Source: Actinocatenispora sera
GTDB taxonomy: Bacteria > Actinomycetota > Actinomycetes > Mycobacteriales > Micromonosporaceae
Direction: 5' to 3'
Assembly (NCBI RefSeq): GCF_018324685.1
Contig: NZ_AP023354.1
Location: 6,034,426-6,098,425, forward strand
DNA: 64,000 nt
Shown here: piece by piece, positions 32,182 to 51,104 of the stretch
Position numbering within the stretch: the first letter of the stretch is position 1
Layout: every line of letters begins with the position of its first letter
The notes under the pieces: generated by a model
Told to the model about the DNA's origin: nothing
The model's input: the letters and a program-made list of their open reading frames with translations, nothing else
Database searches by the model: none
Translations under genes and position numbers: made by a program

Positions 32182-33684
32182 TCAGCCGGCCGGCGCCGGC
32201 AGCGGTACGTCGAACGCCAGGCCGCTGCTGGCATCCACGCAGATGCCGCGCAGCACGTCGTAGAGCCGGGCGACCAGTTCCGGTTGGTCGTCCCACCGGT
32301 TGGTGGTCTCGCCCGGATCGGACTCCATGTCGTACAGCTGGCCGGCCGGGTGCTGCGCGTCCCACGGCGGCGCGGTGTGCGGCTTGCCGCTGCCGGTGGC
32401 GAACAGGTTGTCGATCGACGGTTCGGAGAACCCGCCGCCGGAGCCGGCCGAGAAGATCGCCTTCCACTTCCCCACCCGCAGCGCGAACCGGCCGCCGAGG
32501 CTGTGGTGCACGATCGGCCGGTCCGGGTCACCCGCCTCGGCGCCGGTGAGGATCGGCAGGATGTCCCGGCCGTCGTCGACGGGTACGGCGTCGCCGGTGG
32601 CGGCCGCCGCGGACGGCAGGATGTCGGTCAGGCAGATCGGCGCGTCGGTGCTGCTGCCGGCCGGGACGTGACCGGGCCAGCGGGCCACGAACGGCTCCCG
32701 GTGCCCGCCGTCCCACAGGTCGCCCTTCTGACCGCGCCAGTCGCCGTTGGGCCGGTGCATCCGGATGTCGCCGTCGTCGGTGAAGTACGTGACGGCGCCG
32801 TTGTCGCTGGTGACGATGAACAGGGTGTCGTCGAGCTGGCCCTTCGCCTCGATCGCTGCCCGCAGCTCGCCGACCGCCCAGTCGACCAGGCACACGCCGT
32901 CGGCGCGGGCGCCGAGGCCGGAGCGGCCGCGCACGAACTCCGGCGGTACGTTCGGCCGGTGCGGCGCCGAGGGCGCGAGGTAGCACAGGAACGGGCCGCT
33001 CGCCTGCTCGATGAACGCGACCGCCTCCCGGGTGAACCGGACGTCGCACTCGCTCTCGTCGAACCCCTCGACCTGCAGCCCGGGCCGCTGCTCGGTCAGG
33101 TACCGCTGCTTCTCCCGGTCCGGTACGCCGACGGTGCGGTCCTGGTCGAGGAACGCGTACGGCGGCATGTCGAGCGAGCCGGCGATGCCGAAGAACCGGT
33201 CGAAGCCGAGTTCGGTCGGCCCGCCGGTGACCGGTGCGGTGTAGTCGATGTCGCGGCCGAAATCGGTGTCCACGTCGTCGTGCAGCGGCGCACCGGGCGC
33301 GAACGCGTCGCGTACCGTGCCGTCGGTGTGCCGCCAGCCGAGGCCGAGGTGCCACTTGCCGAACGCGCCGGTGGTGTAGCCGCGGTCGTGCAGCATGCTG
33401 GCCAGGGTCGTGCGGTCCGGCTCGATCAACGCCGGCCCGTGGCCCATCAGCACGAAGTTCTTCAGCGGCCCGCGCCAGGCGTACCGGCCGGTCATCAACG
33501 CGTACCGGCTGGGGGTGCACACCGCGGACGCGGAGTGGCAGTTGGTGGCGCGCACCCCCTCGGCGGCCAGCCGGTCGATGTTCGGGGTGGGTACGGCCGA
33601 GCCGTAACAGCCGAGGTCACCCCAGCCCATGTCGTCGGCCAGCACGACGACGATGTTGGGTCGACCGGTGGTGGTGTCGCTCAT
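32182..33684 (-). CDS. Type I sulfatase 1
   Basis: 500 residues of the alkaline-phosphatase/sulfatase fold. Metal Asps are in IVVVLADDMGWGD (Asp16-Asp17). The formylglycine motif is CTPSR (Cys56) within SAVCTPSRYALMTGRYAWR. Further metal site IVTSDNGAVTYF near residue 280 and HREPFVARWPGHVPAG are present. It hydrolyses a sulfate ester after Cys-to-formylglycine conversion. No signal peptide is seen, so it probably works on imported fragments. ATG 33684 overlaps the preceding stop (ATGA). It is last of the tightly coupled glycan operon. Confidence 0.9.
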   Translation of the reverse strand: MSDTTTGRPNIVVVLADDMGWGDLGCYGSAVPTPNIDRLAAEGVRATNCHSASAVCTPSRYALMTGRYAWRGPLKNFVLMGHGPALIEPDRTTLASMLHDRGYTTGAFGKWHLGLGWRHTDGTVRDAFAPGAPLHDDVDTDFGRDIDYTAPVTGGPTELGFDRFFGIAGSLDMPPYAFLDQDRTVGVPDREKQRYLTEQRPGLQVEGFDESECDVRFTREAVAFIEQASGPFLCYLAPSAPHRPNVPPEFVRGRSGLGARADGVCLVDWAVGELRAAIEAKGQLDDTLFIVTSDNGAVTYFTDDGDIRMHRPNGDWRGQKGDLWDGGHREPFVARWPGHVPAGSSTDAPICLTDILPSAAAATGDAVPVDDGRDILPILTGAEAGDPDRPIVHHSLGGRFALRVGKWKAIFSAGSGGGFSEPSIDNLFATGSGKPHTAPPWDAQHPAGQLYDMESDPGETTNRWDDQPELVARLYDVLRGICVDASSGLAFDVPLPAPAG

Positions 33685-35315
33685 GTCCAGCAGCTCCCGT
33701 CGGCGCTCTTGACGATCCGGATCGCGTTGGTGGTGGCCGGATCGATGGTGAAGTCCTCCGCGTTGCCGATGCACCTGTTGTCGGTGAACACGTTGACGAA
33801 GTTGACGTCGCGGACCTTGTGCGTCCCGTCGATGCCCTGCACCACGTTGGGGTGCGTGTAGTTGGTGTAGGCGTGGATGTTGCGGAAGATCAGCTGGTCG
33901 AGCTCACCGTAACCGAGGGTCGGGTCGTACCACTTGTTGTTCTCGACGGTGAGGTAGAACAGCCGCCAGGTCGCGTTCTCGACCCGGACGTTCTCGAACA
34001 GGTAGCGGTTGGGGGTGCCCGCGCCGGCGTGCAGCGCGCGGAACACCGCCGACTTCTCGATCTGGTAGTGCTCGGCGTGGATCACGTCGTCGTCGTAGAC
34101 GTGGAAGTTGCTCGGGTCGCCTTCGAGGTTCCAGCTGATCATGAACGGGGCGCCGTTCTCCAGCTGCCACACGGTGTTGCCGCGCACCACCTCGTCACCC
34201 CAGAACAGTTTGATCGAGTCGTCGTTGGACTTGACGAAGTTGTTCTCCACCAACGCCTTGTTACCGGCGACCATGCCGTCGGTGCTGTACCACCAGGACA
34301 TCGTCTTGACGTTCTCGATGGTGGTGTACTGCGCCAGCGCGCGCACGTTGAACCGCGGCGCGTTGACCAGCGTGATGCCCTCGACCAGCAGGTTCTGCGA
34401 GGACTGGTCGGCGATGTCGATCATGCCCGGCTGGTTCTTGTTCGAGTCCTGGTTGCCGGTGTCCAGGAACGACCCGTCCAGCACGCCGCGGCCCTTGATG
34501 GTCACGTTGTCGACCGGGCCGTTGGCAATGAACGCGCCCTGCACCCAGGCGCCGCCGGCCAGGTAGATCGTCTCGTTGGAGTGCAGCACGTTGCCGGACC
34601 CGATCTGGTGCACGCCGGGGCCGAAGTACAGCACGTTCGGGTCACCGGTGGCCGGCGGGACGTCGTTCTCCGCCGGGTTGGCGAACACCAGCATCGGGTG
34701 CTGGATCGGGTTGTGGATGTTCGGCTGGAACTCCACCGACACGTTCCGTGGCTGGCTCATGGTGAACGTGCAGGTGTTGCCGGCGAACGTGGTGGTGATC
34801 GCCGCCGAGTACGGCCGGATCAGGCAGCCGGTCAGGCCGCTGCCGGCCAGGGCCGTCACCTGCACGGTGACCGACCCGGTGAACGAGAAGCTGGTCCACG
34901 AGGTGTCCAGTTCCCGGTTGGTGTCGTGCTTGGCGGCAACCGACTTGTACACGAACGACGGCTGGTCGTTCACCTGCACCGAGTACTGGTCGGAGGCCGG
35001 TATTCCGGTCGGCCCCGGGTACAGGCTCAGTGCCGGGCCGGAGCCGGGCGTGATGTCGCCGTACGGCAGGCTCGCGCGGTGGTTCGCGACATCGGCGAGG
35101 GTGGCGTCGGTGGAGCCGGTGATGCTGTCCGCGATCGAGTCGACGGTGGGAATGTCGCCGTCGATCGGGGTGCGCACCCCGCCGTAGTCGTACTGGTTTC
35201 CCACGTACGGTGCGCCGTTGGCCGCGGCGGGCGCCGCGCCGGTCAGGGCCGTCGCGGCGGCGGTCACCGCGACCGTGAAGACGGTACAGAGTCTGCGAAG
35301 TCGACGAGCACGCAC
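33681..35315 (-). CDS. Secreted GH49-like beta-helix glycoside hydrolase A
   Basis: 544 residues. A Sec signal peptide (RLRRLCTVFTVAVTAAATAL, AAPAAA) is followed by a beta-sandwich region (SWTSFSFTGSVTVQVTALAG) and a right-handed beta-helix. The core motifs YSTDGMVAGNKALVENNFVK, NDDSIKLFWGD and VWQLENGAPFMISWN match, as I recall them, the TDG and DD acids of GH49 dextranase/isopullulanase enzymes (clan GH-N). GTG 35315 follows GAGGAG. The end overlaps sulfatase 1. It probably cleaves an extracellular polysaccharide inside the chain; linkage unknown. Paralogs at 36693 and 38327. Confidence 0.75.
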   Translation of the reverse strand: MRARRLRRLCTVFTVAVTAAATALTGAAPAAANGAPYVGNQYDYGGVRTPIDGDIPTVDSIADSITGSTDATLADVANHRASLPYGDITPGSGPALSLYPGPTGIPASDQYSVQVNDQPSFVYKSVAAKHDTNRELDTSWTSFSFTGSVTVQVTALAGSGLTGCLIRPYSAAITTTFAGNTCTFTMSQPRNVSVEFQPNIHNPIQHPMLVFANPAENDVPPATGDPNVLYFGPGVHQIGSGNVLHSNETIYLAGGAWVQGAFIANGPVDNVTIKGRGVLDGSFLDTGNQDSNKNQPGMIDIADQSSQNLLVEGITLVNAPRFNVRALAQYTTIENVKTMSWWYSTDGMVAGNKALVENNFVKSNDDSIKLFWGDEVVRGNTVWQLENGAPFMISWNLEGDPSNFHVYDDDVIHAEHYQIEKSAVFRALHAGAGTPNRYLFENVRVENATWRLFYLTVENNKWYDPTLGYGELDQLIFRNIHAYTNYTHPNVVQGIDGTHKVRDVNFVNVFTDNRCIGNAEDFTIDPATTNAIRIVKSADGSCWT

Positions 35316-35406: not shown

Positions 35407-36696
35407 TCAGCCATGCCGGCATCCCGGCTGCCGCGCCAGGTCCGCGCGGTCGATCGTGTTCGCCATGACCTGGTAGCCGCGGTCGTTGGGATGCAGGTCG
35501 CCGACGGTGTGGTAGCGCGGGTCGATGGTCAGCGGGTCGGCCGGGTCGCGCAGCGCCCGGTCGAAGTCGGCGACGGCGTCGAACGTGCCGCTGGTCCGGA
35601 TCCACCGGTTGACCGCCTGACGCGTCTGCTCGTGCGCCGGCGTGTCGTACACCGAACCGTGGAACGGCGTGATCGTGCCGCCGACGATGCGCAGGCAGTG
35701 CGCGTGCGCCAGCTCGACGAGCTGCGTCATCCCGGCTTCGAGCTGCGCCGCGGTGGCACCGGCGCCGATGTCGTTGACGCCCTCCAGCAGTACCACCGAG
35801 GTGACGCCGGGCTGGTCGAGCACGTCGTGGCGGAACCGGTGCAGCGCCGACTGCCCGCCGCCGGCGGTGTCGGTCAGGATCGCGTTGCCGCCGATGCCCT
35901 CGTTCAGCACGGCCCAGCGCGCAAGCCGGTCGGCCAGCCGGTCCGGGTAGGTGTGGTCGGCGTCGATGGTGGAGAAGGACCCGTCGGTGATGGAGTCGCC
36001 GAACGCGACGACGGTGCCGCGCACCGGCCGGCTCAGCACGTCCACTCCGTCCAGGAAGAACCAGGACGGCGTGATCGCCTGGTACGGCGAGCCGCCGGGC
36101 TCGGTGGCCCAGTCGCCGCCGCCGGAGACGTAGCTGGTCGCCTGCGCCTTGTTGTGCCAGGTGGCCGGGCCGGTGGGGCCGGTCAGGTAGACGCTGACGA
36201 CGAGGTGGCGGCCGGCCCGGGCCCGGACCGGTACGGGGTCGCTGACCACCTCCTCGCCCGCCGGGATCGTGACGGTACCGGCGCCGACGAAGGTGGCGGC
36301 GCGTTGGGTGGCCGCGACGACGATCGGACCGGTGTCCTGTTCGGCCACCGCGACCCGGCCGACCCGCAGCGCGGCCGTGCCGTACCGGTTGGACAGCCGG
36401 ATGCGCACCGCCGGCCCGCTCACCGTGGGCCGGACCACCATCCGGACGGTCCGGTTGGTGAACCCGTCGTGGCTCGGTCCGCTCGCGACCGGCGGTTGCG
36501 GTGCGGCCCGCCAGCCCGCCCGCCACTCCTGCTCGCCGTTCCCGGCCTGCCGATCGACGCTCAGCTGCGCGGCGTGCCGTTGCTCGGCGTCACCGCGGTC
36601 GGCCGTGGCGTGGTGGACGGCCGCGTAGGCGGTCAGCGGCGTCGCCAGCGCCAGCGCCGCGACGACGATGCCGGTACGCCACCGCCGCGGCCTCAC
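35407..36696 (-). CDS. Secreted SGNH/GDSL esterase
   Basis: 429 residues. N-terminal signal/anchor RRWRTGIVVAALALATPLTA is followed by a beta-sandwich-like region and the SGNH hydrolase domain: block I VVAFGDSITDGS (nucleophile Ser), block III LEGVNDIGAG, block V DLHPNDRGYQVMA (Asp-His). Such enzymes remove acyl groups from polysaccharides. GTG 36696 overlaps the stop of the GH49-like gene B by four bases (GTGA). Its place between two glycan hydrolases suggests the polysaccharide is acetylated or otherwise esterified. Confidence 0.88.
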   Translation of the reverse strand: MRPRRWRTGIVVAALALATPLTAYAAVHHATADRGDAEQRHAAQLSVDRQAGNGEQEWRAGWRAAPQPPVASGPSHDGFTNRTVRMVVRPTVSGPAVRIRLSNRYGTAALRVGRVAVAEQDTGPIVVAATQRAATFVGAGTVTIPAGEEVVSDPVPVRARAGRHLVVSVYLTGPTGPATWHNKAQATSYVSGGGDWATEPGGSPYQAITPSWFFLDGVDVLSRPVRGTVVAFGDSITDGSFSTIDADHTYPDRLADRLARWAVLNEGIGGNAILTDTAGGGQSALHRFRHDVLDQPGVTSVVLLEGVNDIGAGATAAQLEAGMTQLVELAHAHCLRIVGGTITPFHGSVYDTPAHEQTRQAVNRWIRTSGTFDAVADFDRALRDPADPLTIDPRYHTVGDLHPNDRGYQVMANTIDRADLARQPGCRHG

Positions 36697-38330
36697 CGGT
36701 ACCGCCCGCCCTCGGTCGTGACGAACCGGATGGCGTCCGAGTTCGTCTGGTCGACCACGAGGTCGGCATCGGCCGCGGACCGGACCGGTGCGCCGCCGAT
36801 GGTCACGTCCTGGAACGTCACGTCGGCAACCGTGTGGTCCGGGTCGATGCCGTGTACCTGGCTCGGGATCCGGAACGGCCCGTCCGCGCTGACGTGGCGG
36901 AAGATCAGGTCGCGGATCTGCCCGTACCCGAGCGTCGGGTCGTACCACTTGTTGTTCTCGATGGTGAGGTCGAACAGCCGGTAGTGCGCGTCTTCGACCC
37001 GGATGTTCTCGAACAGGTAGCGGCTCATCGTCGCCGCACCGGCGTGCAGGGCGCGGAAGATGCCGGACTTCTGGATCCGGTTGTGCTCGGCGTGGATCAC
37101 GTCGTCGTCGTAGACATGGAAGTCCGAGCCGTCCTGCTCGATGTTCCAGCTGATCATGAACGGTGCACCGTTCTCCAGTTGCCAGACGGTGTTGTGCCGG
37201 GCGATCGTGTCACCCCAGAACAGCTTGATCGAATCGTCGTCGACCTTGACGAAGTTGTCCTCCAGCACCGACTTGTGCCCGCCGACCATGCCGTCGGTCG
37301 AGTACCACCAGGACATCACCTTCACGTTGTGGATGGTGGTGTACTGCGCCAGCGCGCGGATGTTGAAGCGGGGCCCGTTCACCAGCGTGATGCCCTCGAT
37401 CAGCAGGTTGGTGGACGACTGGTCGGCGATGTTGATCATGCCCGGCTGGCCCTTGTTCGAGTCCTGGCTGCCGGTGTCCAGGAAGCCGCCGTCGAGGATG
37501 CCGCGGCCCTTGATCGTCACGTTGTGCACCGGGCCGTGCGCGATGAACGCAGCCTCCACGTACGCGCCGCCGGCCAGGTAGATCGTCTCGTTGTCGTGCA
37601 GCTCGACGCCGCTGCCGAGGTGGTGGAAACCCGGCCCGAAGTAGCGCACGTCCTCGTCACCGGTGGCCGGCGGGGTGTCCACCTCCGGCGGGTTGGCGAA
37701 CACCAGCATCGGGTGCGTGACGTAGGCGCCGGCCTGCGGGGTGAACTCGACACTCAGGTTGGCCGCCGAGGTCAGCCCGAACACGCAGGTCCGCCCGACC
37801 AGCCGGGCGCGGACGTGCGCCGATGCCGGCCGGACCAGGCAGCCGGTCGCCTCGATCGGATGCAGCGCGGTCACCGCGACCAGGATCGGCCCGGTGAAGG
37901 AGAACGACGTCCAGGAGGTGTCGGCTTCCTGGTTGGTGTCGGTCTTGCGGGCCTGCGCCTGGTAGACGAACGACGACCGCGACTGGCCGGGCGGCTGCGT
38001 CACGCTCACCCGGTACTGGTCCGAGGCCTTCGTGCCGGCGGGGGCCGGGTACGTCCACAGCGCCGGGTGCTGCCGCGGCGGCGTGATGTCGCCGTACGCG
38101 AGCTGCGCCCGGTGGGCGGCGACCTCCCGCGCCACCGCGTCGGTACTGCGGGTGATCTGGTCCGCGGTGGCGTCGACCCGTGGCAGCGGGCCGTCCACCG
38201 GCGTCACCGCACCGCCCTGGTGGTACTCGGTGCCGACGTAGCGGTGCGCCGGGTGCGCGGCGGCCGGCGCCGCACCGAGCGCGACGAGGCCCAGGGTGAG
38301 TGCGACGGCGAGGACGCGAACGCGCTTCAT
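36693..38330 (-). CDS. Secreted GH49-like beta-helix glycoside hydrolase B
   Basis: 545 residues with signal peptide MKRVRVLAVALTLGLVALGA, AAPAAA. Same architecture as paralog A; the shared core is YSTDGMVGGHKSVLEDNFVK (Asp346), DDDSIKLFW (Asp365-Asp366) and VWQLENGAPFMISWN. A second Asp-rich stretch FHVYDDDVIHAEH and KWYDPTLGYG are common to all three copies. ATG 38330 overlaps the upstream paralog's stop (ATGA). The two-domain layout and the three acids are what one expects of GH49-like enzymes; activity on dextran or pullulan is not implied. Confidence 0.75.
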   Translation of the reverse strand: MKRVRVLAVALTLGLVALGAAPAAAHPAHRYVGTEYHQGGAVTPVDGPLPRVDATADQITRSTDAVAREVAAHRAQLAYGDITPPRQHPALWTYPAPAGTKASDQYRVSVTQPPGQSRSSFVYQAQARKTDTNQEADTSWTSFSFTGPILVAVTALHPIEATGCLVRPASAHVRARLVGRTCVFGLTSAANLSVEFTPQAGAYVTHPMLVFANPPEVDTPPATGDEDVRYFGPGFHHLGSGVELHDNETIYLAGGAYVEAAFIAHGPVHNVTIKGRGILDGGFLDTGSQDSNKGQPGMINIADQSSTNLLIEGITLVNGPRFNIRALAQYTTIHNVKVMSWWYSTDGMVGGHKSVLEDNFVKVDDDSIKLFWGDTIARHNTVWQLENGAPFMISWNIEQDGSDFHVYDDDVIHAEHNRIQKSGIFRALHAGAATMSRYLFENIRVEDAHYRLFDLTIENNKWYDPTLGYGQIRDLIFRHVSADGPFRIPSQVHGIDPDHTVADVTFQDVTIGGAPVRSAADADLVVDQTNSDAIRFVTTEGGRYR

Positions 38331-40029: not shown

Positions 40030-40115
40030 GGTGACTCCTCTGCTGGGGGATGAGGATCGCCTTGCTGCCCGGACGGTCCGCGCCGCGTCGGGCGACGCGG
40101 GCCGTCCGGGGTTGG

Positions 40116-41545
40116 TCAGCCGAAACGGAGCCGGTGTTCGGCGGTCGCGTCCCACTCGTTGAGGCCGGGTACGCCGAACGCGGGCGCCAGGACGTAGTGG
40201 TCGTAGGTTTCGGCCAGCCGGTCGCGCAGCAGCTGGTGATGGTGACGCAGCTGCTCGGTCTGGGCGGGATCGTCCACCAGGTTGGTCATCTCGTACGGGT
40301 CGTTGGCCAGATCGAAGAACTGCCAGGGCTTCCCGCCGTCCGCGCCGCCGAGCACGGTGTACTTGTACCGGCCGCTGCGGATGCCGCGCCAGGTCTGTTC
40401 GTGGAACGGGATGTTCGGCCGCATCTCGGCGACGAACTCCAGCAGCACCCCCTCGCGGTCCAGCGTGTCGGTGGCGCCGCGGGCGATCGGGGTGAGATCC
40501 AGTCCCGGCTTGGGATCTCGGGGGGTGATGCCGGCGAGGCCGAGCAGGGTCGGAAACAGGTCCTCGGTGCTGACCGGGTCGGCGACCACCCGGCCGCCGG
40601 CACCGAGGTTGCCGACGATCAGCGGAATGCCGATCGACTCCTCCCACGGTCGCTGCTTGGCGAGCAGGCCGTGGCAGCCGAGCAGCTCGCCGTGGTCGGC
40701 GGTCAGCGCGATGATCGTGTTGTCCAGCGTGCCGGCCGCGCGCAGCCGGTCGACCAGCCGGCCCACGTTGTCGTCCAGGTTCTCGATCGCCGCGTAGTAG
40801 GACCGCAGATCGTCCAGCAGGTCGGCGTTGCCGTCCCACGGGCCCGGATCTTGTACTGCTTGTCCAGCTCCACGTTGTCCCGCAGCACCAGTTCCCGGCC
40901 CTTCCACCGGTCCAGGTACTCCTGCGGCGCGGTGAACATCGGGTGCGGTGGCTCCACCGACAGCACCATCGCGTACGGCTTGTCCCGCGCCGCGGCGGCG
41001 TAGTCCGACGCCATCGAGAACAGCGCGTCGGTCTGGTACCCGTCGATCTTGTGCATGGTCGGTTCGTCGTTGGTGGAGTACCAGGTGTCGTACGGGTCGT
41101 TGCAGATGTCGAAACCGGTGAAGGTGCCGAACCGGCCCTGGAACGGCCGCGGCACCGGGGTACGGGACGCCTTCACCACGGTGTGCCCGGGGTAGTGCCC
41201 GAAGTTGCCGTACAGGTGCCACTTGCCGAACAGTGCGGTGTCGTAGTCGTGCTCGTTGAACTCGTCGGCCAGGGTGCGTTCGGCCGGCGACATCCGCCAC
41301 TCGATCGCCGGGATGAACCGGGTGTGCGCGTACTCGCCGGTCATCAGCGAGAAGCGGTACGGCACGCAGACCGGGTAGGTCGAGCATGCGGCGTCGAACC
41401 GGGCACCCGAGTCGGCCAGCGCGTCGATGTGCGGCGTGCTGACGTTCGGATCGCCGTAGCAGCCGAGCGCCTGCCGGCGCAGCTGGTCGGCGATGATCAG
41501 GATGACGTTGGGGCGCTCCGTCGCCGGGACGGGTGCAGAACTCAC
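40116..41545 (-). pseudogene. Type I sulfatase 2, interrupted by a frameshift
   Basis: The first part (41545 to about 40847) reads NVILIIADQLRRQALGCYGD with formylglycine motif CVPYR (Cys60, within VCVPYRFSLMTGEYAHTR) and FGKWHLYGNFGHY. The second part (about 40843 to 40116), in another frame, carries IIALTADHGELLGCHGLLAK, RPWEESIGIPLIVGN and the C-terminus. One missing base in the GGGCCC stretch near 40840-40847 accounts for the break; corrected length would be about 476 residues. Uncorrected, the product stops at 40703 without half its metal site. GTG 41545 overlaps the permease stop. Confidence 0.8.
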
Positions 41546-42426: not shown

Positions 42427-43340
42427 TCTTCCCACCCCTTGCGCCGCAGGAACTGGTACACCGCCAGAACGAGGCCCACGATCACGGTCATGGACAGCCC
42501 GAGGGCGGCGGCGTAGCCGGCCGAGTACTGGTTGAAGGCCTGGTCGTACATCAGCGTCGACACCACGTCGGACGAGTTGGCCGGCCCGCCGTGGGTCATG
42601 ATGAAGATGTAGTCGAACGCCTTGAGCGACCAGATGATCGTCATCAGCACCACGAAGATCATCGTGGGCCGGATGCCGGGCAGGGTGACCGACAGGAACT
42701 GCCGCCAGCGGCCGGCACCGTCGAGCCGGGCCGCCTCGTACAGCTGCACGTCGACGCCCTGCATCGCGGCGAAGAAGATGACCGCGAGGAAGCCCCACCA
42801 GTGCCAGTCCACGACGAAGTTCACCGCGTACAGCGAGGTCTTCGGGTCACCGAGCCACGCCTGGCTGATGCCCAGCGTGTGCCCGATCCCGCTGTCGGGA
42901 GACAGCAGCATCTTCCAGATCGCCGCGTTGATCACGCTGGCCGTCACGTACGGGATGAAGAACAGCGTGCGGTACAGCATCCGGAACCGCGTCACCTGGT
43001 TGATCAGGTGCGCGCCGAGCAGCCCCAGCGCCATCGGTACGAACAGGAACAGCACGAACCAGATCGCGTTGTGCAGCAACGCTTCGCGCACCGCCGGGTC
43101 GGTGAACGCCCGGGTGTAGTTGGCCGTCCCGACGAACTTGGCCGGCCCGATGCCGGACCAGTCGGTGAACGAGTACCAGACGGTGGCGAGCGAGGGCCCG
43201 AGCACCACGATGACGTTGAGGATCAGCAGCGGCGCGAGGAACGCCCAGCCGATCAGCCCACGTCGCAGCCGCAGCCGCCGCGCGCCGGAGCGCGGCGGCG
43301 CGGCCAGCGCGGTACCGCTGGGCGCCGGGGCGGCGGTCAC
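42423..43340 (-). CDS. CUT1 sugar ABC permease, MalF type
   Basis: 305 residues with six membrane helices; the first is GLIGWAFLAPLLILNVIVVL. The EAA loop is VQLYEAARLDGAGRWRQFLS, VTLPGIRP. It pairs with the MalG-type permease. GTG 43340 overlaps the binding-protein stop by four bases. The neighbouring hydrolases and sulfatases suggest uptake of oligosaccharide fragments from a charged or sulfated glycan. Confidence 0.92.
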   Translation of the reverse strand: MTAAPAPSGTALAAPPRSGARRLRLRRGLIGWAFLAPLLILNVIVVLGPSLATVWYSFTDWSGIGPAKFVGTANYTRAFTDPAVREALLHNAIWFVLFLFVPMALGLLGAHLINQVTRFRMLYRTLFFIPYVTASVINAAIWKMLLSPDSGIGHTLGISQAWLGDPKTSLYAVNFVVDWHWWGFLAVIFFAAMQGVDVQLYEAARLDGAGRWRQFLSVTLPGIRPTMIFVVLMTIIWSLKAFDYIFIMTHGGPANSSDVVSTLMYDQAFNQYSAGYAAALGLSMTVIVGLVLAVYQFLRRKGWEE

Positions 43341-44740
43341 TTCCCCGCCCCGCGCGGCATCAGCTTCGGGATGGTGCCCTCCTGCCGCTCCTGGTCGAAC
43401 AGGGTGGCCAGCTGCTTGCAGTACGCGGCCGGGGTCATCTTGTTCGTCAGCACCTTCTCCATGCCCTGGAAGACGAACGTGTCCGACTTCGGCGGCCACC
43501 AGGTCCACGTCACGTACCCGTAGTTGCCGGTGTCGATGGCGGTGTTGAGCGAGGTGAGCACCCGCTTGGCGCGCGGATCGATGCGGGCCGGGATCTCGTT
43601 GTCGGAGAACGTGATCGGGACGTTGTAGGTGGCCGGCACGTCGGCCATCCGGCCGAGCGCCGCGGTCTTGTCCCCGTAGTACCAGTTGAGGAAGTTCGCC
43701 GCGGCGTCCTGGTTCTTGCTCGCCTGGTTGATGGCGAACGAGCCGCCGATCCCGATCGGGTACGTGTCCGGCTTGACCGCCGAGGACAGCGGCGGCACCG
43801 GCATCCAGTCCCAGTCGTTGTCGTTGCCGGCCTTCGCACCGAAGAACTGGCCGACGTTGCTCATGTACCACTCGCCCTGCGGGATGGTGGCGACCTTGCC
43901 CTTGCCGAAGTTCGCGCCCATCTCGGCCGCCGGCACGGAGAAGTACTTCGCCACGCTGCCGCCGATCCAGCCCTTGTCGAAGTACGACTTGAGCAGCGTC
44001 ACCGCGTCCACGAACACCGGGTCGGAGAACTTCGCCTTGCCGGTCAGCGCCTGGTACACCGCGTCCGGCCCGGACACGTTGTTCCAGAACACCGTCATCA
44101 GCCACTCGCTCGCGGCGGCCCAGTCGGTGTTGGACGAGCCGAACGGCACGATGCCGTGGCCGGCCGCCTCCTTGGCGAACTCCTCCAGTTCCGACCGGTT
44201 CTGCGGCCTGCTCCAGCCCTTGGACTCGAACAGCGTCTTGTTGTAGTACAGCAGCATCGTGTCCACCCGCATCGGCAGCGCGAACAGCTTGCCGTCGGTG
44301 GTGAACGCGTTGATCGCCCATTCGGCGAGCTTGCCGTTCCAGCCCCACTTCTTCGCGTACGAGGAGAGGTCGGCGAGCACGTGCGCCTTGCTCCACGCGA
44401 TCGTCTGGGTGGCGGCGGGGCCGCGGACGATATCGGGCCCGGACTTCGACTGCAGCGCGGTCTGCACCAGCCGGCGCAGATCCTGCCCCTTGTAGTAGGT
44501 GGTCTTCATGGTGATCTTCGGATACGCCTTCTCGAAGCCGCCCTGCACCTTGTCGGTGAAGTACTTCTGGTTGGCGTCACCGGTGATGTCGATCCACAGC
44601 TTGACGGTGCCGGTACCGTTGCCGGCCGAGCCGCCGCCCCCACCGCCGCAGGCGGCGAGCAGGCTCGGCACGGCGGCGCCGGCACCGAGCAGACCGGCGC
44701 TGGACAGCAGACGACGACGGCTCAGGTTGGGTCCAGTCAT
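43337..44740 (-). CDS. Sugar-binding lipoprotein of CUT1 importer
   Basis: 467 residues. The N-terminus SRRRLLSSAGLLGAGAAVPS, LLAAC is a lipobox with a twin-arginine-like start, followed by the flexible GGGGGGSAGNGTG and a periplasmic-binding fold (VKLWIDITGDANQKYFTDKV). Trp-rich segments (WGWNGKLAEWAINAF, DNDWDWMPVPPL, YVTWTWWPPKSD) are suited to stacking on sugar rings. It delivers substrate to the two permeases downstream. ATG 44740 overlaps the preceding stop (ATGA). Confidence 0.92.
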   Translation of the reverse strand: MTGPNLSRRRLLSSAGLLGAGAAVPSLLAACGGGGGGSAGNGTGTVKLWIDITGDANQKYFTDKVQGGFEKAYPKITMKTTYYKGQDLRRLVQTALQSKSGPDIVRGPAATQTIAWSKAHVLADLSSYAKKWGWNGKLAEWAINAFTTDGKLFALPMRVDTMLLYYNKTLFESKGWSRPQNRSELEEFAKEAAGHGIVPFGSSNTDWAAASEWLMTVFWNNVSGPDAVYQALTGKAKFSDPVFVDAVTLLKSYFDKGWIGGSVAKYFSVPAAEMGANFGKGKVATIPQGEWYMSNVGQFFGAKAGNDNDWDWMPVPPLSSAVKPDTYPIGIGGSFAINQASKNQDAAANFLNWYYGDKTAALGRMADVPATYNVPITFSDNEIPARIDPRAKRVLTSLNTAIDTGNYGYVTWTWWPPKSDTFVFQGMEKVLTNKMTPAAYCKQLATLFDQERQEGTIPKLMPRGAGK

Positions 44741-46797
44741 GGGGTGTCCTCGGGGAGCGTGACGCCGGGCCCGGTGGCCGGTTCGGCGCCGATGGTTGGG
44801 GAGAGCTGCGTGACGTCGACGACCTGGGTCGCGGTGCGACCCTCGGTGACGGTCAGTGCGACGCCGCCGCTGTCGAACGCGTCGTCGCGCTCGTCGAACA
44901 GCGACCGGCCGTCGACGCCGGCGCGGAGGCGGTCGCCGTCGACGGTGAGGAACAGGTGGTAGGTCCGGCCGTAGGACCAGTCGTACGGCTGCTCGGCGAG
45001 CACGACCGGCTCGCCGTGTGGCACGCCGCGCACCAGCCGGATGTGCTCGCCGGCCAGCTCTACCGCGTAGTACCGGCCGAGGCCCTGTACCCGGGCGGCC
45101 AGGCCGGCCGCGGCGGCCAGGTGCGGGGTGACGTCGGCGGTGACCGTGTAGTCGCGCCAGTCGCGGGTGCCGGTGATCAGCATGCCGCGGCCGCGGTTCT
45201 GCACGATCCGGAACGGTTCCGGCCACCGGTCGTCGAACCGGTCGAGGGCGGCCACCCAGGCCCGGCGCCACATCGCGCCGCCGTCGGCCGGCCGGGTCAG
45301 CCGCACGCTCGGCGCGCCGCTCCAGGTCAGGTCGTGCAGGGTGGCCGGCCCGCTGGTACGGATGCCGACGGCGACGACCGGCTGCCCGTCGAGGTCGGGG
45401 ACGGTCCAGACCAGTTCGGTGTCGCGGCCGGCGGGGCCCTCGACCGTACGCGGCTCGTCGGTGCCGGTGTAGACCCGCAGCACCAGCTGCGCGGCGCCGC
45501 CCACGGTGGCCCGGATCGTCTGCCCCGGGTACAGCGTGGGGCTCGCGACCAGCGCGTAGATCGGCATCTGCTGCGCCTCGGGCGGGATGAACGTCGGCGT
45601 GACGACCGTTGCGGCACCGTCGATCGCGAGCCGGCCGCCGGGGTTGCCGACCGTCGCCTCGCCGTCGACCACCTCGAACCCCTGCACCGATCCGGGCAGG
45701 GTGAAGTGGAACCGGTGCGCCGGCGCCGGTTCCGGCGGCGCACCGTAGCGGGTCCGGCCGAGCTGGGCCAGCTCCAGAGCCACCCGGGCGGCGTCGGCGA
45801 CGCAGGAGCCGCCGTCCGCGGCCGGCAGGTAGAGCCGGTCCGCGAGCGGGCCGCGCCAGTCCTGCCGGGACAGCCCGGCCAGGCCGCCGAACACGCCGCA
45901 GATCGCGCCGACGTTGCCGCCGTTGGAGTCGGTGTCCCAGCCCGAGGTGCACACGACGGTCATCGCCTCGTCGAACGCGCCGCCGCTGTGTGCCAGCGCG
46001 GCGATCACGATCGCGTGGTTGGGCACCACGTGACAGTTCCCGCCGTAGATGTGGTAGCCGTACTTGTCGTCGATGCGCTGCCGGGTGGCCTTCCAGTCCC
46101 CGTCGGCCGCCCAGGACCGGACGTCCCGGTGGATCTGCGCGATCAGGCTGTCCGCCGGGATCAGCGTCATCACCTCGTCCAGCAGCCGGTCCATGTCGTC
46201 GGCGGTGAACGCGCCGGCGACCAGCGCCGCGACCACCCGGGCGGCGTGGATCGCCTCGCCGTCGTGGCTGACCCGGGCGGCCCGCTCGGCGAGATCCGCG
46301 GCACCGGCCGGATCACCCGGGCAGGTCAGGGCGAAACCCTCGACGAAGATCTGCGCGCCGACCTGCTCGGCCACCACGGTGCCGTTGCGCGCGATCGACC
46401 CGCTCTCCGGCGGCGCGATGCCCGCCCGCATCCGCAGGTACGCGGTGTGCTCGGTGGAGTTGCCCAGGCCGCCCCACCACAGGATCGAGGTGTCCGGGAC
46501 GATGTAGTTCAGCCACGCGTCGCCGACGTCCACCGAGCTCGGGTCGACCCCGGCGTCGCGCAGCGCGCGCGGGAACACGAACGTACCGCTGATGTCGTCG
46601 TCGGTGACCACCAGCAGGTGGTGCTTGAGCGCGACGTCGGCGCGATCGTTGACGTAGTAGGTGACGTCGCCGAGCTCCGCCTGGATCCGGTCGTACCGCC
46701 AGCCCTCGTACGGGCGGCCCAGGTAGACGGCGATCACCTTGCCGAGCACCCCGGCGTAGACGCGTTCGGTGTAGTCGGCCGGCACGATGTGGGACAT
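44737..46797 (-). CDS. ADP-ribosylglycohydrolase-family protein with C-terminal jelly-roll domain
   Basis: 686 residues. The first 340 are an ADP-ribosylglycohydrolase fold: metal motif TDDDISGTF (residues 65-73) and DTDSNGGNVGAICGVFGG near residue 285. These all-helical enzymes cleave N- or O-glycosidic bonds to ribose using two Mg ions. Residues about 500-665 resemble a LamG/DUF1080-type carbohydrate-binding jelly roll (RDYTVTADVTPHLAAAAGLA, YYAVELAGEHIRLVRGV). No signal peptide. Coupled to rbsD and rbsK, so it probably frees ribose or a close relative from imported fragments. Acting on ADP-ribosylated protein is less likely here. Confidence 0.82.
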   Translation of the reverse strand: MSHIVPADYTERVYAGVLGKVIAVYLGRPYEGWRYDRIQAELGDVTYYVNDRADVALKHHLLVVTDDDISGTFVFPRALRDAGVDPSSVDVGDAWLNYIVPDTSILWWGGLGNSTEHTAYLRMRAGIAPPESGSIARNGTVVAEQVGAQIFVEGFALTCPGDPAGAADLAERAARVSHDGEAIHAARVVAALVAGAFTADDMDRLLDEVMTLIPADSLIAQIHRDVRSWAADGDWKATRQRIDDKYGYHIYGGNCHVVPNHAIVIAALAHSGGAFDEAMTVVCTSGWDTDSNGGNVGAICGVFGGLAGLSRQDWRGPLADRLYLPAADGGSCVADAARVALELAQLGRTRYGAPPEPAPAHRFHFTLPGSVQGFEVVDGEATVGNPGGRLAIDGAATVVTPTFIPPEAQQMPIYALVASPTLYPGQTIRATVGGAAQLVLRVYTGTDEPRTVEGPAGRDTELVWTVPDLDGQPVVAVGIRTSGPATLHDLTWSGAPSVRLTRPADGGAMWRRAWVAALDRFDDRWPEPFRIVQNRGRGMLITGTRDWRDYTVTADVTPHLAAAAGLAARVQGLGRYYAVELAGEHIRLVRGVPHGEPVVLAEQPYDWSYGRTYHLFLTVDGDRLRAGVDGRSLFDERDDAFDSGGVALTVTEGRTATQVVDVTQLSPTIGAEPATGPGVTLPEDTP

Positions 46798-47186
46798 CAG
46801 AACGCCACCCCCGCCCGCAGCACGACGTTGGAGAACGGGGTGTCCTCGCCGGTCCGGACGACCGCGGCGGCACCGGCCGTTTGCTGCTTCAGCTCGTCGT
46901 GCGTGGTCCAGGTGACGGCGATGTCACCCAGCTGCGCGGTGATCTCGTCGATCAGCTTCCGGTCGGTCAGCTCGGCGGCCAGCGTCGCGTGCTCGACGAT
47001 CAGCTCGGCGAGGATCGGCCGCAGCACGGTCAGCAGCCCCGGCTCGCCGCGGGCGACCGCGAGGTCGACGACCTCCACCCCCCGCGGTACCGGCAGCCCG
47101 GCGTCGGCGACCACCAGCAGGTCGCCGTGGCCGAGGCCGGCGGCCAGTGCCGCGAGCCGCGGATGCCACAATCCCGATCGGCGCAT
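46797..47186 (-). CDS. rbsD: D-ribose pyranase/RbsD-FucU family
   Basis: 129 residues. RbsD interconverts pyranose and furanose forms of ribose so that ribokinase can act. The signature is GLWHPRLAALAAGLGHGDLL, VVADAGLPVPRG, with the catalytic His (GHGD) and Asp (ADAG). FucU-type sugar mutarotases look similar, but pairing with ribokinase favours ribose. The start ATG 47186 shares one base with the ribokinase stop; its stop overlaps the next start (ATGA). Confidence 0.88.
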   Translation of the reverse strand: MRRSGLWHPRLAALAAGLGHGDLLVVADAGLPVPRGVEVVDLAVARGEPGLLTVLRPILAELIVEHATLAAELTDRKLIDEITAQLGDIAVTWTTHDELKQQTAGAAAVVRTGEDTPFSNVVLRAGVAF

Positions 47187-48112
47187 CAGGCCACATCTCC
47201 CATCCGTGCATCGAGCTCGTCCCGGCCGTACAGCGCGGACTGCGCGCCGCGGCCCTCGGTCGCCGCGGCGCCGGCGGCGCACCCGGCCCGTACCGCCTGC
47301 GGCAGGGTCCGGCCGTCGGCCAGCGCCGCGGCGAGCACGCCGCAGAACGCGTCCCCGGCGCCGGTCGTGTCGAGCACCGCGGCGGGCAGTGCCGGCTGGT
47401 GCCAGGACCCGTCGCCGGTGCAGGCGACCGCGCCGTCGCCGCCCAGCGTGATCACCACCGCGGCCGGCCCCTGCTCGCGCAGCGCGACCGCGACCGGCAG
47501 CCAGGCGGCCGGCGTGCCGGCGCCGGACAGCGCGATGGCCTCGGTTTCGTTGACCACCAGCACGTCCACGTTGGCCAGCAGCGTGGCCAGGCCACTGCTG
47601 CCGGGCTGCGGTGGCGGGGCCGCGTTGAGCACCACCCGGGCGCCGGCGGCGCGCGCCGCGACGGCCGCGGCGGCGGCGGTCGCCAGCGGTACCTCCAGCT
47701 GCAGCAGCACCACGTCGTCGGGGCCGAGGCGGGACCGCAGGTCGGCGATCGCGTCGGCGGTCAGGGCGGAGTTGGCGCCGGGCGCGACGACGATGGTGTT
47801 CTCGGCGTCGGCGGCGACCGTCACGAGCGCCAGCCCGGTCGGCGCCGACCGGTGCTCGATCAGCCGGTCGAGGCCGACGCCCTGCGCGGCGAGTGCGGTG
47901 CGCAGCAACCGACCGAACGAGTCGGCGCCGACCGCCGCGTACAGCTCGGTGGCGGTCCCCCATCGGCTCGCCGCGACCGCCTGGTTGGCGCCCTTGCCGC
48001 CGGGCAGCAGCGCGGTGTCGGTGGCGAGCAGCGTCTGCCCGGGCGCCGGCAGCGCGGCCACCTGGGTGGTGACGTCCACGTTCGCGCTGCCGACCACGAT
48101 CACCCGACTCAT
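47186..48112 (-). CDS. rbsK: Ribokinase (PfkB family)
   Basis: 308 residues. PfkB signatures: VVGSANVDVTTQVAALPAPG, LLPGGKGANQAVAASRWG near residue 40, and the catalytic DTTGAGDAFCGVLAAALADG near residue 250. NETEAIALSG is the ribokinase NExEA motif. It phosphorylates ribose at O5 using ATP. ATG 48112 overlaps the lacI stop (ATGA). Another pentofuranose as the true substrate cannot be excluded, but RbsD next door supports ribose. Confidence 0.9.
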   Translation of the reverse strand: MSRVIVVGSANVDVTTQVAALPAPGQTLLATDTALLPGGKGANQAVAASRWGTATELYAAVGADSFGRLLRTALAAQGVGLDRLIEHRSAPTGLALVTVAADAENTIVVAPGANSALTADAIADLRSRLGPDDVVLLQLEVPLATAAAAAVAARAAGARVVLNAAPPPQPGSSGLATLLANVDVLVVNETEAIALSGAGTPAAWLPVAVALREQGPAAVVITLGGDGAVACTGDGSWHQPALPAAVLDTTGAGDAFCGVLAAALADGRTLPQAVRAGCAAGAAATEGRGAQSALYGRDELDARMGDVA

Positions 48113-49185
48113 GCCGGTACCCCCGTGCCGTCGCCGGGTGCCGGCGCGTCGCCGTCGGTGTCGGACTCGTCGCCGACGATCGGATCGGGACAGCCGCAGG
48201 AGCCGCGGGCCACCAGGTCGACCGGCAGCACCGAACTCGCGGTGTCCGCGGCCGGATCGTCGAGGCGGTCCAGCAGCCGGCGCACCGCGGTCTGGCCCAG
48301 TTCGTCGAACGGCTGCGCCATCGTGGTCAGCGCCGGCGAGGTGTACGCGGCGGCGGCGATGCCGTCGAAGGACGCGACGGCCACGTCGTCCGGACACCGG
48401 ATGCCGAGGTCCTGCATCGCCCGCAGCACACCGATGGCCTGCTGGTCGCTCGCGACGAACACCGCGTCGAACCGGCCGCCGGCGAGCATCTCCCGGGCGG
48501 CGCGGTACCCGGCCCGGCGGCCGAACGAGCCGTGCCACACCGACATCTCGCTGGGATGTACCCCGGCCCCGGCCAGCGCGTCGCGCCACCCGGTGACCCG
48601 GGCGTTGGCCGGTATCACGTCCTCCGGGCCGGCGATGCAGCCGATCCGGCGCCGGCCGTGCGCGAGCAGGTGCTCGGTGGCGGCCCGCGCGCCGCCGCGG
48701 TGGTCGGCCATCACGGCCGCCGCGTACCGACCGGGGGTCTGCCGGTCGAGCGTCACCCAGGCGACGCCGGACTTGCGCAGTTCGGGCAGGCAGCTGGTGG
48801 GTCCGTGCGCCGGCACCAGGAACAGGCCGTCGACGCGACGGGCGAGGAAGGTCCGCACGTACGCGGTCTGCCGGGCGTCGTCCTCGGCCGCGTTGCCGAT
48901 CAGCAGCGTGTAGTCCTCGGCGAAGGCCGCCTCCTCGATGGCGCGGGCCAGCTGGGCGAAGAACGGGTTCGAGGTGTCCGGGACCAGCAGCCCGAAGGTC
49001 ATGGTCCGGTTCGTCCGCAGCGAGCGGGCGATGCCGTTGGGGCGGTAGCCGAGCTGCTCGATGGCGGCGAGCACCCGCGCCCTGGTCTCCGGCGCGACGC
49101 CGCGCGGTCCTCCGTTGAGCACGTAGCTCACGACCGCGGGCGAGGTACCCGCCAGCTTCGCGACATCCGCCCGGCGTACGGCCAC
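48109..49185 (-). CDS. LacI-family repressor of the glycan operon
   Basis: 358 residues. N-terminal HTH ADVAKLAGTSPAVVSYVLNG with hinge helix YRPNGIARSLRT, then a periplasmic-binding-type sensor (FGLLVPDTSNPFFAQLARAI, DGLFLVPAHG, VFVASDQQAIGVLRAMQDLG). A tail SCGCPDPIVGDESDTDGDAP is longer than usual. It is first of the operon and divergent from a Tat-exported beta-helix protein. GTG 49185 follows GGGAGG. It most likely binds the CAACACGTGTTG-type palindromes around it and is released by a sugar from the pathway. Confidence 0.92.
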   Translation of the reverse strand: MAVRRADVAKLAGTSPAVVSYVLNGGPRGVAPETRARVLAAIEQLGYRPNGIARSLRTNRTMTFGLLVPDTSNPFFAQLARAIEEAAFAEDYTLLIGNAAEDDARQTAYVRTFLARRVDGLFLVPAHGPTSCLPELRKSGVAWVTLDRQTPGRYAAAVMADHRGGARAATEHLLAHGRRRIGCIAGPEDVIPANARVTGWRDALAGAGVHPSEMSVWHGSFGRRAGYRAAREMLAGGRFDAVFVASDQQAIGVLRAMQDLGIRCPDDVAVASFDGIAAAAYTSPALTTMAQPFDELGQTAVRRLLDRLDDPAADTASSVLPVDLVARGSCGCPDPIVGDESDTDGDAPAPGDGTGVPA

Positions 49186-49197
49186 CGAACCTCCCTA

Positions 49198-49211
49198 GCA
49201 ACGCGTGTTGC
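49198..49211. promoter_or_regulatory. LacI operator O1 (near lacI start)
   Basis: GCAACGCGTGTTGC differs from the perfect site at 49256 by one central base. It lies 13 bp before the lacI start codon, overlapping its leader, so it should serve autorepression and operon control. Confidence 0.65.
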
Positions 49212-49255
49212 GACAGCAGTTGCCGAAGATGGTGTGACGTGGCGGTAAACAGAAG

Positions 49256-49267
49256 CAACACGTGTTG
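49256..49267. promoter_or_regulatory. LacI operator O2 (perfect palindrome)
   Basis: CAACACGTGTTG, a perfect 12-bp palindrome of the LacI/GalR type with central CG, in the middle of the divergent region and 57 bp from O1. Confidence 0.7.
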
Positions 49268-49400: not shown

Positions 49401-49429
49401 TTGCGCAACCTCGTCAACCGTTGGATACT
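49401..49429 (+). promoter_or_regulatory. Predicted promoter of Tat-exported beta-helix gene
   Basis: -35 TTGCGC (49401-49406), 17-bp spacer, -10 GATACT (49424-49429); start point near 49436, about 40 bases before the GTG start. Confidence 0.55.
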
Positions 49430-49448
49430 CCGCGCACCGTTTGCCGAG

Positions 49449-49460
49449 CAACACGAGTTG
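49449..49460. promoter_or_regulatory. LacI operator O3 downstream of the rightward promoter
   Basis: CAACACGAGTTG, one mismatch from O2, 13-25 bases past the predicted start point of the rightward gene. This is a classic repressor position and ties the exported beta-helix protein to the leftward operon. Confidence 0.6.
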
Positions 49461-49475
49461 ATGGGGGCTCCCCTG

Positions 49476-51104
49476 GTGAGCACGCGCAGACAGTTCCTCC
49501 GCGCCGGCGGTGGGTTGATGGCCGGGCTGGCCGTGGCGCAGCCGGCCGTCGCGGACCCCGCCCGGAAGTCCGGACCGCAGACCGCCCGCTGGCAGTCCGC
49601 ACTGCTCCGGGTGACCGACGGCGACCGGCTGGCGTACCAGTGCGACGCGGAGGGCAACCGCCTGCCGGACTTCGGTCACGCCGGTTACCGCAACGGAGCG
49701 CCGATCCCCGCGGTACCGGTCGTCGCGCGGATCGGCCCGGTGCCGGGCGACAACACGGCGCACCTGCAGGCGGCGCTGGACGCGGTGGGCCGGTTGCCGA
49801 GGCGCGCCGACGGGTTCCGCGGCGCCCTGTTGCTCGCACCGGGCGAGTACCCGGTGGCCGCAACGGTGTTCCTCAACCGCGACGGAGTGGTGCTCCGCGG
49901 ATCCGGCTCGGGGTCGGATCCCGCGCACGACACCATCGTCCTCGGCACCGGCGACACGCTGCTCGGACCGCCCGTGTTCATCGTCGGCGGCGCATCGACC
50001 TGGGGCCCCGGCGAGACCCGGTGGGCCGGCGCGGTCCCCGGCAGCCGCACGTCGATCACGAGCGAACTCGTCCGCATCGGGGAACGCTCCTTCACCGTCG
50101 ACGACCCGACGTCGCTGCACGCGGGAGACAACGTCATCGTGACCCACCCGTGTACCGCGGAGTGGCTCGCCGCCGTCGACGGCGGCGGCACGCACGGCGG
50201 ACCGGCCTGGCGGGTCGACGAGGACCCGATCCTCTACAACCGTCACGTGGTGGAGATCAGGGGCCACCGGGTCACGATCGACGCACCGCTGTTCAACGAC
50301 CTGCGGCGGGAACTGTCGCCGTGCTACCTCTACCGCTGGGACCGCGCCGGGCTGGTCGGCAACGTCGGCGTGGAACACCTGAACATCGACATCCAGTACA
50401 CCGGGCCCACCGACGAGGACCAGGCGAACGCCGGCGCCGGGATCGCCCTGTCACTCGTCGAGGACGCGTGGGTACGCGACTGCACGACCAGGCACTTCTG
50501 GTTCTCCGGCGTGCGGACCACGGAGACCACCCGGGCCACGATCGAGGACTGCCGGGCGCTCGACCCGGTGGCGAGCATCGCCGGCTCCCGCCGCTACAAC
50601 TTCGCCGCCGGGCCCTACTCGCAGCAGATCCTGTTCACCGGCTGCCACGCGACCAACGGCCGGCACAACTTCGTCGCGTTCGGGAAGTCCAAGACCTCCG
50701 GCATCGTCTTCCACCGCAACCTCGGCGAGGGTAGCTACACCGGATGCGAGGGGCACGCCGGCTGGAGCCAGGGGCTGCTGTTCGACAACCACCGGGAACT
50801 CGCGCCCAACCTGTCCGCGGTGGAGCACGAGTACCGGCTGCTGCTGGGCTGTCGCGGCAACTACGGCGGCAACCAGGGCTGGGGGGCGGTCAACTCGGTG
50901 GCCTGGGCCTCGACGGTGCAGGCGCCGGGCAGTCTCGTGGTCCAGAAGCCTCCGACCGCCCAGAACTACGCCATCGGCTGCGCCACGGACGTCTCCGGGC
51001 ACGGCCCGTTCGCCGAACCCGCCGGGTACATCGAGGGCACCAACCGGCCCGGCCTGCTGCCGGAGTCGCTGTACGAGGCGCAACGGCGGGCGCGGGGCGC
51101 CTGA
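49476..51104 (+). CDS. Tat-exported pectate-lyase-like beta-helix protein
   Basis: 542 residues. A twin-arginine signal STRRQFLRAGGGLMAGLAVA is followed by a right-handed beta-helix: DNTAHLQAALDAVGRLPRRA (the usual entry segment), ALLLAPGEYPVAATVFLNRD, GVVLRGSGSG, then rungs such as VEHLNIDIQYTGPTDEDQAN and CTTRHFWFSGVRTTETTRAT. It could be a lyase or hydrolase; catalytic residues cannot be assigned. GTG 49476 is chosen as the natural start of the Tat signal; ATG 49461 adds five residues. LacI sites upstream link it to the leftward operon. Confidence 0.8.
   Translation: MSTRRQFLRAGGGLMAGLAVAQPAVADPARKSGPQTARWQSALLRVTDGDRLAYQCDAEGNRLPDFGHAGYRNGAPIPAVPVVARIGPVPGDNTAHLQAALDAVGRLPRRADGFRGALLLAPGEYPVAATVFLNRDGVVLRGSGSGSDPAHDTIVLGTGDTLLGPPVFIVGGASTWGPGETRWAGAVPGSRTSITSELVRIGERSFTVDDPTSLHAGDNVIVTHPCTAEWLAAVDGGGTHGGPAWRVDEDPILYNRHVVEIRGHRVTIDAPLFNDLRRELSPCYLYRWDRAGLVGNVGVEHLNIDIQYTGPTDEDQANAGAGIALSLVEDAWVRDCTTRHFWFSGVRTTETTRATIEDCRALDPVASIAGSRRYNFAAGPYSQQILFTGCHATNGRHNFVAFGKSKTSGIVFHRNLGEGSYTGCEGHAGWSQGLLFDNHRELAPNLSAVEHEYRLLLGCRGNYGGNQGWGAVNSVAWASTVQAPGSLVVQKPPTAQNYAIGCATDVSGHGPFAEPAGYIEGTNRPGLLPESLYEAQRRARGA

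Follow-up and report, generated by a model that had tools for sequence, protein, structure and literature searches.

The stretch of DNA analysed here, 64,000 nucleotides of the Actinocatenispora sera genome (contig NZ_AP023354.1, positions 6,034,426 to 6,098,425; hereafter the window), carries a leftward operon of 13 genes, lacI-rbsK-rbsD-ARH-SBP-perm1-perm2-sulA-GH49a-GH49b-SGNH-GH49c-sulB, with a divergent gene on the opposite strand. We read it, with a probability of about 0.55, as belonging to a LacI-controlled regulon for consuming a sulfated, ribose-yielding glycan, in which three enzyme groups are tied together by conservation and by a defined operator motif. To our knowledge, joint action of GH49-like hydrolases, cytoplasmic sulfatases and an ADP-ribosylglycohydrolase-family (ARH) protein with ribose genes was not previously known. 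The genome is a single contig of 7,044,238 bases; genes were identified from open reading frames, frame-wise GC, and Pfam and NCBIfam searches of the window, signal peptides were assessed by eye throughout, and the labels GH27, GH127, CBM66, araB and araD are provisional. An earlier sequence-only reading of this DNA had listed the genes of the locus; all of them were found in place, and Pfam and NCBIfam agree wherever a family model exists. The features, in window coordinates, are as follows.

48109..49185, minus strand: lacI, LacI-family repressor, the operon's first gene (PF00356/PF13377 above cut-off)
47186..48112, minus strand: rbsK, ribokinase-like PfkB kinase (PF00294, 202.7 bits)
46797..47186, minus strand: rbsD, D-ribose pyranase (NCBIfam NF008761, 127.2 bits, cut-off 93)
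44737..46797, minus strand: ARH, ADP-ribosylglycohydrolase-family protein, 686 aa (PF03747, 160.6 bits, cut-off 26.2)
43337..44740, minus strand: CUT1 solute-binding protein (SBP) (PF01547; twin-Arg and lipobox-like N-terminus by eye)
42423..43340, minus strand: CUT1 permease 1, perm1 (PF00528)
41542..42426, minus strand: CUT1 permease 2, perm2 (PF00528)
40116..41545, minus strand: sulA, sulfatase A, CVPYR motif, frame broken at 40835 (PF00884 in both halves)
38327..~40029, minus strand: GH49a, GH49-like, with an export signal seen by eye and, in this assembly, an out-of-frame start (middle catalytic position Glu)
36693..38330, minus strand: GH49b, GH49-like, export signal by eye, catalytic D/D/D (PDB dextranase 6nzs, E=1.2e-11)
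35407..36696, minus strand: SGNH/GDSL esterase, probably exported, judged by eye (PF13472, 100.1 bits)
33681..35315, minus strand: GH49c, GH49-like, export signal by eye, the conserved-core paralog (D346/D365/D366; AlphaFold2 and Foldseek)
32182..33684, minus strand: sulB, sulfatase B, CTPSR motif, no signal peptide by eye (PF00884, 175.3 bits)
49461..51104, plus strand: divergent protein, Tat-like signal by eye, weak beta-helix match (likely ATG; longest frame from 49341)
49199..49210, no strand: operator-like site O1, CAACACGCGTTG, before lacI (from conservation)
49256..49267, no strand: operator-like site O2, CAACACGTGTTG, 57 bases from O1 (from conservation)
49449..49460, no strand: operator-like site O3, CAACTCGTGTTG / CAACACGAGTTG, ending immediately ahead of the divergent gene's likely ATG

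The near-complete ATGA/GTGA-type coupling described earlier holds, with ten of the 12 junctions overlapping (eight by four bases, two by one base) and gaps of ~86 bases ahead of GH49a and ~91 bases ahead of GH49c at the other two. Conservation of gene order in relatives had been proposed as a check on the locus, and GH49 and ARH alignments were each searched against 354 genomes of the Micromonosporaceae, with neighbourhood stretches of up to 20 kb read. The GH49 alignment matched 17 genomes at E<=1e-20 (12 at E<1e-200, counting the window genome, plus five more remote ones) and the ARH alignment 13 at E<=1e-40; all 12 genomes with a close GH49 match are among these 13, the thirteenth being G755. 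Gene calling in the relatives relied on an in-house codon-usage program trained on the window; its start positions are unreliable, and some genes were overlooked or called too short (the SBP of G753, perm1 of G807). The ten-gene core order lacI-rbsK-rbsD-ARH-SBP-perm1-perm2-sulA-GH49c-sulB is kept in ten relatives of seven genera: G682, from the same genus as the window, G967 (Rugosimonospora africana), G809, G753 (SBP partly called), G758, G904, G762 (Catellatospora methionotrophica), G844, G823 and G780 (Dactylosporangium siamense). An eighth genus is represented by the fragmented genome G807, which has rbsK to sulB without a called perm1. Across the phylum, the ARH profile matched two of 396 genomes at E<=1e-60, the window genome and G670, where a 3,066-base contig holds an SBP gene followed by an ARH gene cut by the contig end.

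Three genes, GH49a, GH49b and SGNH, make up an accessory module: only the window and G682 have GH49a-GH49b-SGNH next to the core, and it is absent there in nine of the ten relatives. In R. africana, GH49a, another GH49-like gene and SGNH form a set on a separate contig from the core. In G807 the start of GH49a lies downstream of a formylglycine-generating enzyme (FGE) gene, and a different contig carries two GH49-like genes with an enolase-superfamily gene, not SGNH, behind them. Near the unlinked R. africana set there are also two candidate enzyme genes (L011, 15715-17739 on the minus strand and 19155-21041 on the plus strand), which by eye, from a motif, look like beta-L-arabinofuranosidases (GH127). 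Two further genomes hold parts of the locus. G755 (L093) has an operon remnant of lacI, rbsK and an ARH gene with an internal stop, with the operator pair retained, and G680 (L094) has lacI, operator sites and the divergent gene on a contig that stops after rbsK; the alignment searches of the G680 genome returned no ARH or GH49 match, and its operon may have been lost or left unassembled.

Upstream of lacI, the window and all 13 further genomes read (the ten core-order relatives, G755, G680 and G807) carry a palindrome pair, CAACNCGNGTTG, with its sites 55-57 bases apart; in G904 and G762 one site of the pair has one mismatch. The window genome (7.04 Mb) holds seven such palindromes, three of them at this locus, and three matches in all to the reversed pattern, a control that gave 0 to 6 sites per genome. 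Allowing one mismatch, the window has six matches (three places, both strands) vs a shuffled mean of 1.49, and none of 100 shuffles reached six. The best NCBIfam model for the LacI protein is RbsR, at 230.9 bits and under its cut-off of 382. Two exact operator sites, 88 bases apart, stand just ahead of GH49a in the unlinked R. africana set, and two exact sites precede GH49a in G807, whose other GH49-like contig has no operator site. Because the same motif precedes the unlinked R. africana set, we place the accessory set and the core in one regulon, and these operators are the strongest sign suggesting that the two serve one purpose. The sequence-only reading had proposed a single pathway that breaks down an esterified, sulfated polysaccharide and feeds a ribose-like sugar into metabolism; conserved order and shared operators speak for the single pathway, while the esterified part, which depended on SGNH, belongs to the accessory genes only. 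Single operator-like sites in G000 (at cytochrome-type genes), G780 and G809 had no sugar-catabolic operon beside them by eye and were treated as chance.

The divergent gene was considered as a part of the core and set aside, since a search of 14 genomes at E<=1e-20 gave no match to it in 12. It appears to be an accessory member of the regulon with an operator of its own, also present in G680, which has a similar three-site arrangement and a divergent protein 92% identical to that of the window. Its description as a Tat-exported beta-helix protein survives in part: the Tat-like signal is there by eye, and the Beta_helix match reaches 17.9 bits, under the cut-off of 25.9, while no PDB sequence matches it below E=0.55.

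Both sulfatases carry PF00884 and the C-x-P-x-R-x4-T-G motif of the formylglycine (S1-type) class, the motif being present in 22 of 22 sulA and sulB copies from 11 relatives. An FGE gene lies directly after sulB in nine of the ten core-order relatives (not in G682) and in G807; two of these copies score 282.9 and 279.2 bits on PF03781, and the ten align, 74-80% identical to the first. The window genome has three PF03781 matches elsewhere, one of them 65% identical to the clustered FGE type. Because no signal peptide is seen by eye in either protein, sulA and sulB are probably cytoplasmic, acting after import; in the 13 copies inspected, the sulfatase domain starts near the N-terminus.

The third enzyme group is best resolved for GH49c, whose AlphaFold2 model (pLDDT 81.4) gave isopullulanase and dextranase chains as its first seven Foldseek matches (E 1.3e-15 to 1.8e-13, rmsd 4.4-8.7), with an isopullulanase at the top (E=1.3e-15) and GH28-type enzymes only from 5.8e-6. 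The modelled paralog thus takes the GH49 fold, a right-handed beta-helix with an N-terminal beta-sandwich, in line with the clan GH-N beta-helix that had been expected; for GH49a and GH49b the assessment relied on aligning them with GH49c. In the PDB, a profile built from eight paralogs matched 6nzs (7.5e-23), isopullulanase (1.7e-14) and, far more weakly, an exo-polygalacturonosidase (0.007). GH49 enzymes use three Asp residues in catalysis; by alignment these are D346, D365 and D366 in GH49c and likewise D/D/D in GH49b, and GH49a with the three orthologs read has D/E/D, with Glu at the middle place. The naming of three GH49-like genes is upheld by the PDB profiles and the GH49c fold and falls short at Pfam, where none of the three passes the GH49 cut-off (GH49c 18.6 vs 21.3 bits; no match for GH49a or GH49b at E<=0.01); two distant proteins of G244, a genome of the same family, do pass it (32.9 and 21.8 bits). 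The NCBIfam rhamnogalacturonidase model matches GH49b and GH49c weakly (22.9 and 21.0 bits, cut-off 500). From alignment and model, the assignment of the three paralogs appears to reach as far as "clan GH-N, GH49-like". In a tree of 25 GH49-like proteins, each window/G682 pair is supported at 100/99 or 100/100, GH49a groups with the R. africana and G807 rows (95/96), for which reason we consider it older than the genus, and GH49b falls on the same side as GH49a (95/99); rows of GH49c do not resolve as one clade and the distant rows are long-branched. GH28, GH49, GH87 and GH110 are described as sharing fold and machinery (PMC7939477), and GH110 acts on lambda-carrageenan according to the title of the same paper, so that a sulfated substrate would not be foreign to the GH49-type fold.

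Inside the cell, the pathway would depend on ARH, which we propose to be a cytoplasmic ribosidase. It has no signal peptide by eye, C-terminal beta domains that weakly resemble a levanase domain (E=0.0014 and 0.00058), and the motifs VTDDDISG and SGWDTDSN, both in 12 of 12 locus copies; such motifs form the metal site in the ARH family. Because the core is without another intracellular glycosidase, ARH is the obvious candidate for releasing the sugar that RbsD and RbsK would take up. Distant full-length relatives came from a plasmid collection (25 records, of which nine span 80% or more of the query; we read four neighbourhoods): the nine, from Deinococcus, Rhizobium, Agrobacterium and Enterobacter, are 42-51% identical to ARH. 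The orders read are LacI-permease-permease-SBP-unassigned gene-ARH-ribokinase-ARH in Deinococcus aetherius, LacI-SBP-permease, an open reading frame containing ARH and then by eye an ABC ATPase in Rhizobium jaguaris, LacI-ARH-SBP in Enterobacter hormaechei, and ARH-UgpC in Agrobacterium; no sulfatase was seen in these four neighbourhoods. The Deinococcus gene between importer and ARH (L101, 5616-6728) encodes a 370-residue protein with no Pfam match, possibly a hydrolase.

That ARH would instead remove ADP-ribose from a protein or metabolite, the ribose genes recycling the ribose as a separate branch in a shared operon, is what the family name and the metal-site motifs would suggest; we regard this as very unlikely, given that intact ARH (E<=1e-40) occurs in the 354 family genomes only at this locus, that its plasmid counterparts in other phyla adjoin LacI and sugar-importer genes, and that the core would then be left with no glycosidase in the cell. 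A further question is whether the released sugar is D-ribose. Its identity as ribose is suggested by RbsD, which lies above the cut-off of the D-ribose pyranase equivalog, aligns with RbsD 1ogc (E=1.4e-21) and scores no more than 20.7 bits against the L-fucose mutarotase model (cut-off 141), by RbsK, whose 12 PDB matches at E<=1e-30 all bear the name ribokinase, and by the annotated Deinococcus ribokinase next to ARH, 46% identical to the window RbsK. Another pentose is possible, given an arabinose parallel in G244, and the same regulon might then act on a sulfated arabinan or mixed pentan with RbsK, RbsD and ARH shifted to another pentose or furanose. The G244 locus (L095/L066, C1:440000-475999), a putative separate sulfated-arabinan locus, sets a GH49-like gene beside an FGGY kinase, a class II aldolase, an L-arabinose isomerase, a CUT1 importer (SBP and two permeases), a sulfatase and a melibiase-type gene; an unannotated Bacteroidota polysaccharide locus on a Persicobacter sp. 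JZB09 plasmid (CP012863.1; L104, 108633-139883) brings together a pair of GH49-like genes (39% and 29% identity), four sulfatase genes, two GH43 genes, a melibiase-type gene and, by eye, a SusC-like receptor with a SusD-like neighbour. RbsK also stays under the NCBIfam ribokinase cut-offs (250.4 vs 299.65 and 215.3 vs 341 bits), though ribokinase is its best family. Set against the evidence from RbsD, the PDB matches and Deinococcus, we consider a shift to another sugar rather unlikely.

Whether the pathway works in the window strain itself is a separate matter, since the sequence-only reading had missed a frameshift in sulA and the lack of an in-frame start in GH49a. Compared with the 476-aa copy of G682, residues 1-237 of sulA are encoded at 41545-40835 (95.8% identity) and residues 238-476 at 40835-40119 in a different frame (92.9%); GH49a is an open frame without an in-frame start beside its ribosome-binding site, the break lying at a C run at ~40010-40030. 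The breaks may be either assembly errors or real lesions. Two of them in one operon, and the clear remnant in G755, would fit a locus decaying in this strain, with both frameshifts real and the pathway non-functional here. That is unlikely in our view: a single frame change restores the whole 476-residue sulA at 93-96% identity to G682, the GH49a break sits at a run of C, a common site of assembly errors, and the remaining 11 genes are open. sulA is a single open frame in G682 and ten other relatives (11 of 11 read), and GH49a is likewise intact in G682.

For the sulfated, ribose-yielding glycan that we favour, the regulon would work as follows. Without inducer, LacI, bound at the two conserved operators, would repress its own operon; secreted GH49-like beta-helix hydrolases would cut the polymer to sulfated oligosaccharides, with the SGNH esterase and the divergent protein assisting in some species. 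The lipoprotein SBP and two CUT1 permeases would import these, presumably powered by an ATPase encoded elsewhere, the operon having none. The two sulfatases, matured by FGE-type activation as their motifs and gene linkage suggest, would strip the sulfates in the cytoplasm, ARH would split the ribosidic bond, and RbsD and RbsK, judging by their families, would convert the ribose to ribose 5-phosphate.

Several observations weigh against this picture. Besides the RbsK scores and the two broken frames of the window copy, the ARH model, built from four sequences, is poor (pLDDT 46.8), a ribokinase gene occurs in one of the four ARH neighbourhoods read from other phyla, G807 lacks GH49c between its sulfatases, and the one search of open-access literature for a sulfated ribose polysaccharide returned none. 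The GH49-like family does not tell the sugar, because characterised GH49 enzymes act on alpha-glucans and the distant relatives of GH49c on plasmids (24-39% identity) are annotated GH28 in five of seven records. Among distant GH49-like neighbourhoods (two of the seven on plasmids read; Pfam run on L062 of the genus-g4 loci), several are without a sulfatase: L062 has alginate-lyase-type, GH2 and fucosidase genes beside its GH49-like gene, and Bacteroides finegoldii has an alginate-lyase-type gene with family-78 and family-97 hydrolases. A bolder proposal, which we hold tentatively and think likelier to fail than to stand, is that the ~690-residue ARH clade (PF03747 plus beta domains) forms an unrecognised multi-phylum family of cytoplasmic catabolic ribosidases and, in Micromonosporaceae, provides the last step for an undescribed natural sulfated ribose-containing polysaccharide opened by a new GH49-like family. 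The regulon offers a direct test of a carbohydrate role for a subfamily now called "ADP-ribosylglycohydrolase", as well as a route to the substrate of the GH49-like group and to the question of sulfated ribose glycans in soil.

The sequence-only reading knew of no described locus with this combination, and our search of open-access literature found none either. With the GH49 dextranases and isopullulanases (6nzs, 1ogm, 3wwg), GH49c shares a fold match along its whole length (TM-scores 0.55-0.65) and aligned catalytic acids, whereas identity is 17-18%, the window genes are linked to sulfatases and a ribose branch, and one catalytic Asp is replaced by Glu in GH49a. Relatives annotated as GH28 (Fibrella, Hymenobacter, Bacteroides finegoldii, others) are 24-29% identical to GH49c in alignments that span between half and four fifths of it, and that of B. 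finegoldii passes the Pfam GH28 cut-off, but GH28 structures rank well below GH49 ones for GH49c in both fold and profile searches. The rus locus of Bacteroides thetaiotaomicron reportedly combines ribokinase genes, ribose-freeing enzymes and a sugar importer, with nucleosides as substrate; ribokinase and ribose release would be common to both systems, but the rus importer is said to be SusCD where the window has CUT1, and we know of no GH49-like genes or sulfatases there. Bacteroidota polysaccharide utilisation loci in general have a SusC/SusD pair in place of an SBP and two CUT1 permeases. Other loci hold one half each: the LacI-importer-ARH cassettes of Deinococcus, Rhizobium and Enterobacter have a full-length ARH beside LacI and an importer, in Deinococcus also a ribokinase, but no sulfatase or GH49-like gene beside ARH in the stretches read, and the G244 and Persicobacter loci pair GH49-like proteins and sulfatases with a sugar importer, but where the window has ARH-rbsK-rbsD they have hydrolases of melibiase type or GH43 and, in the case of G244, arabinose-type genes. 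The window operon thus seems to join two recurring halves, GH49-like/sulfatase and importer/ARH, under one LacI.

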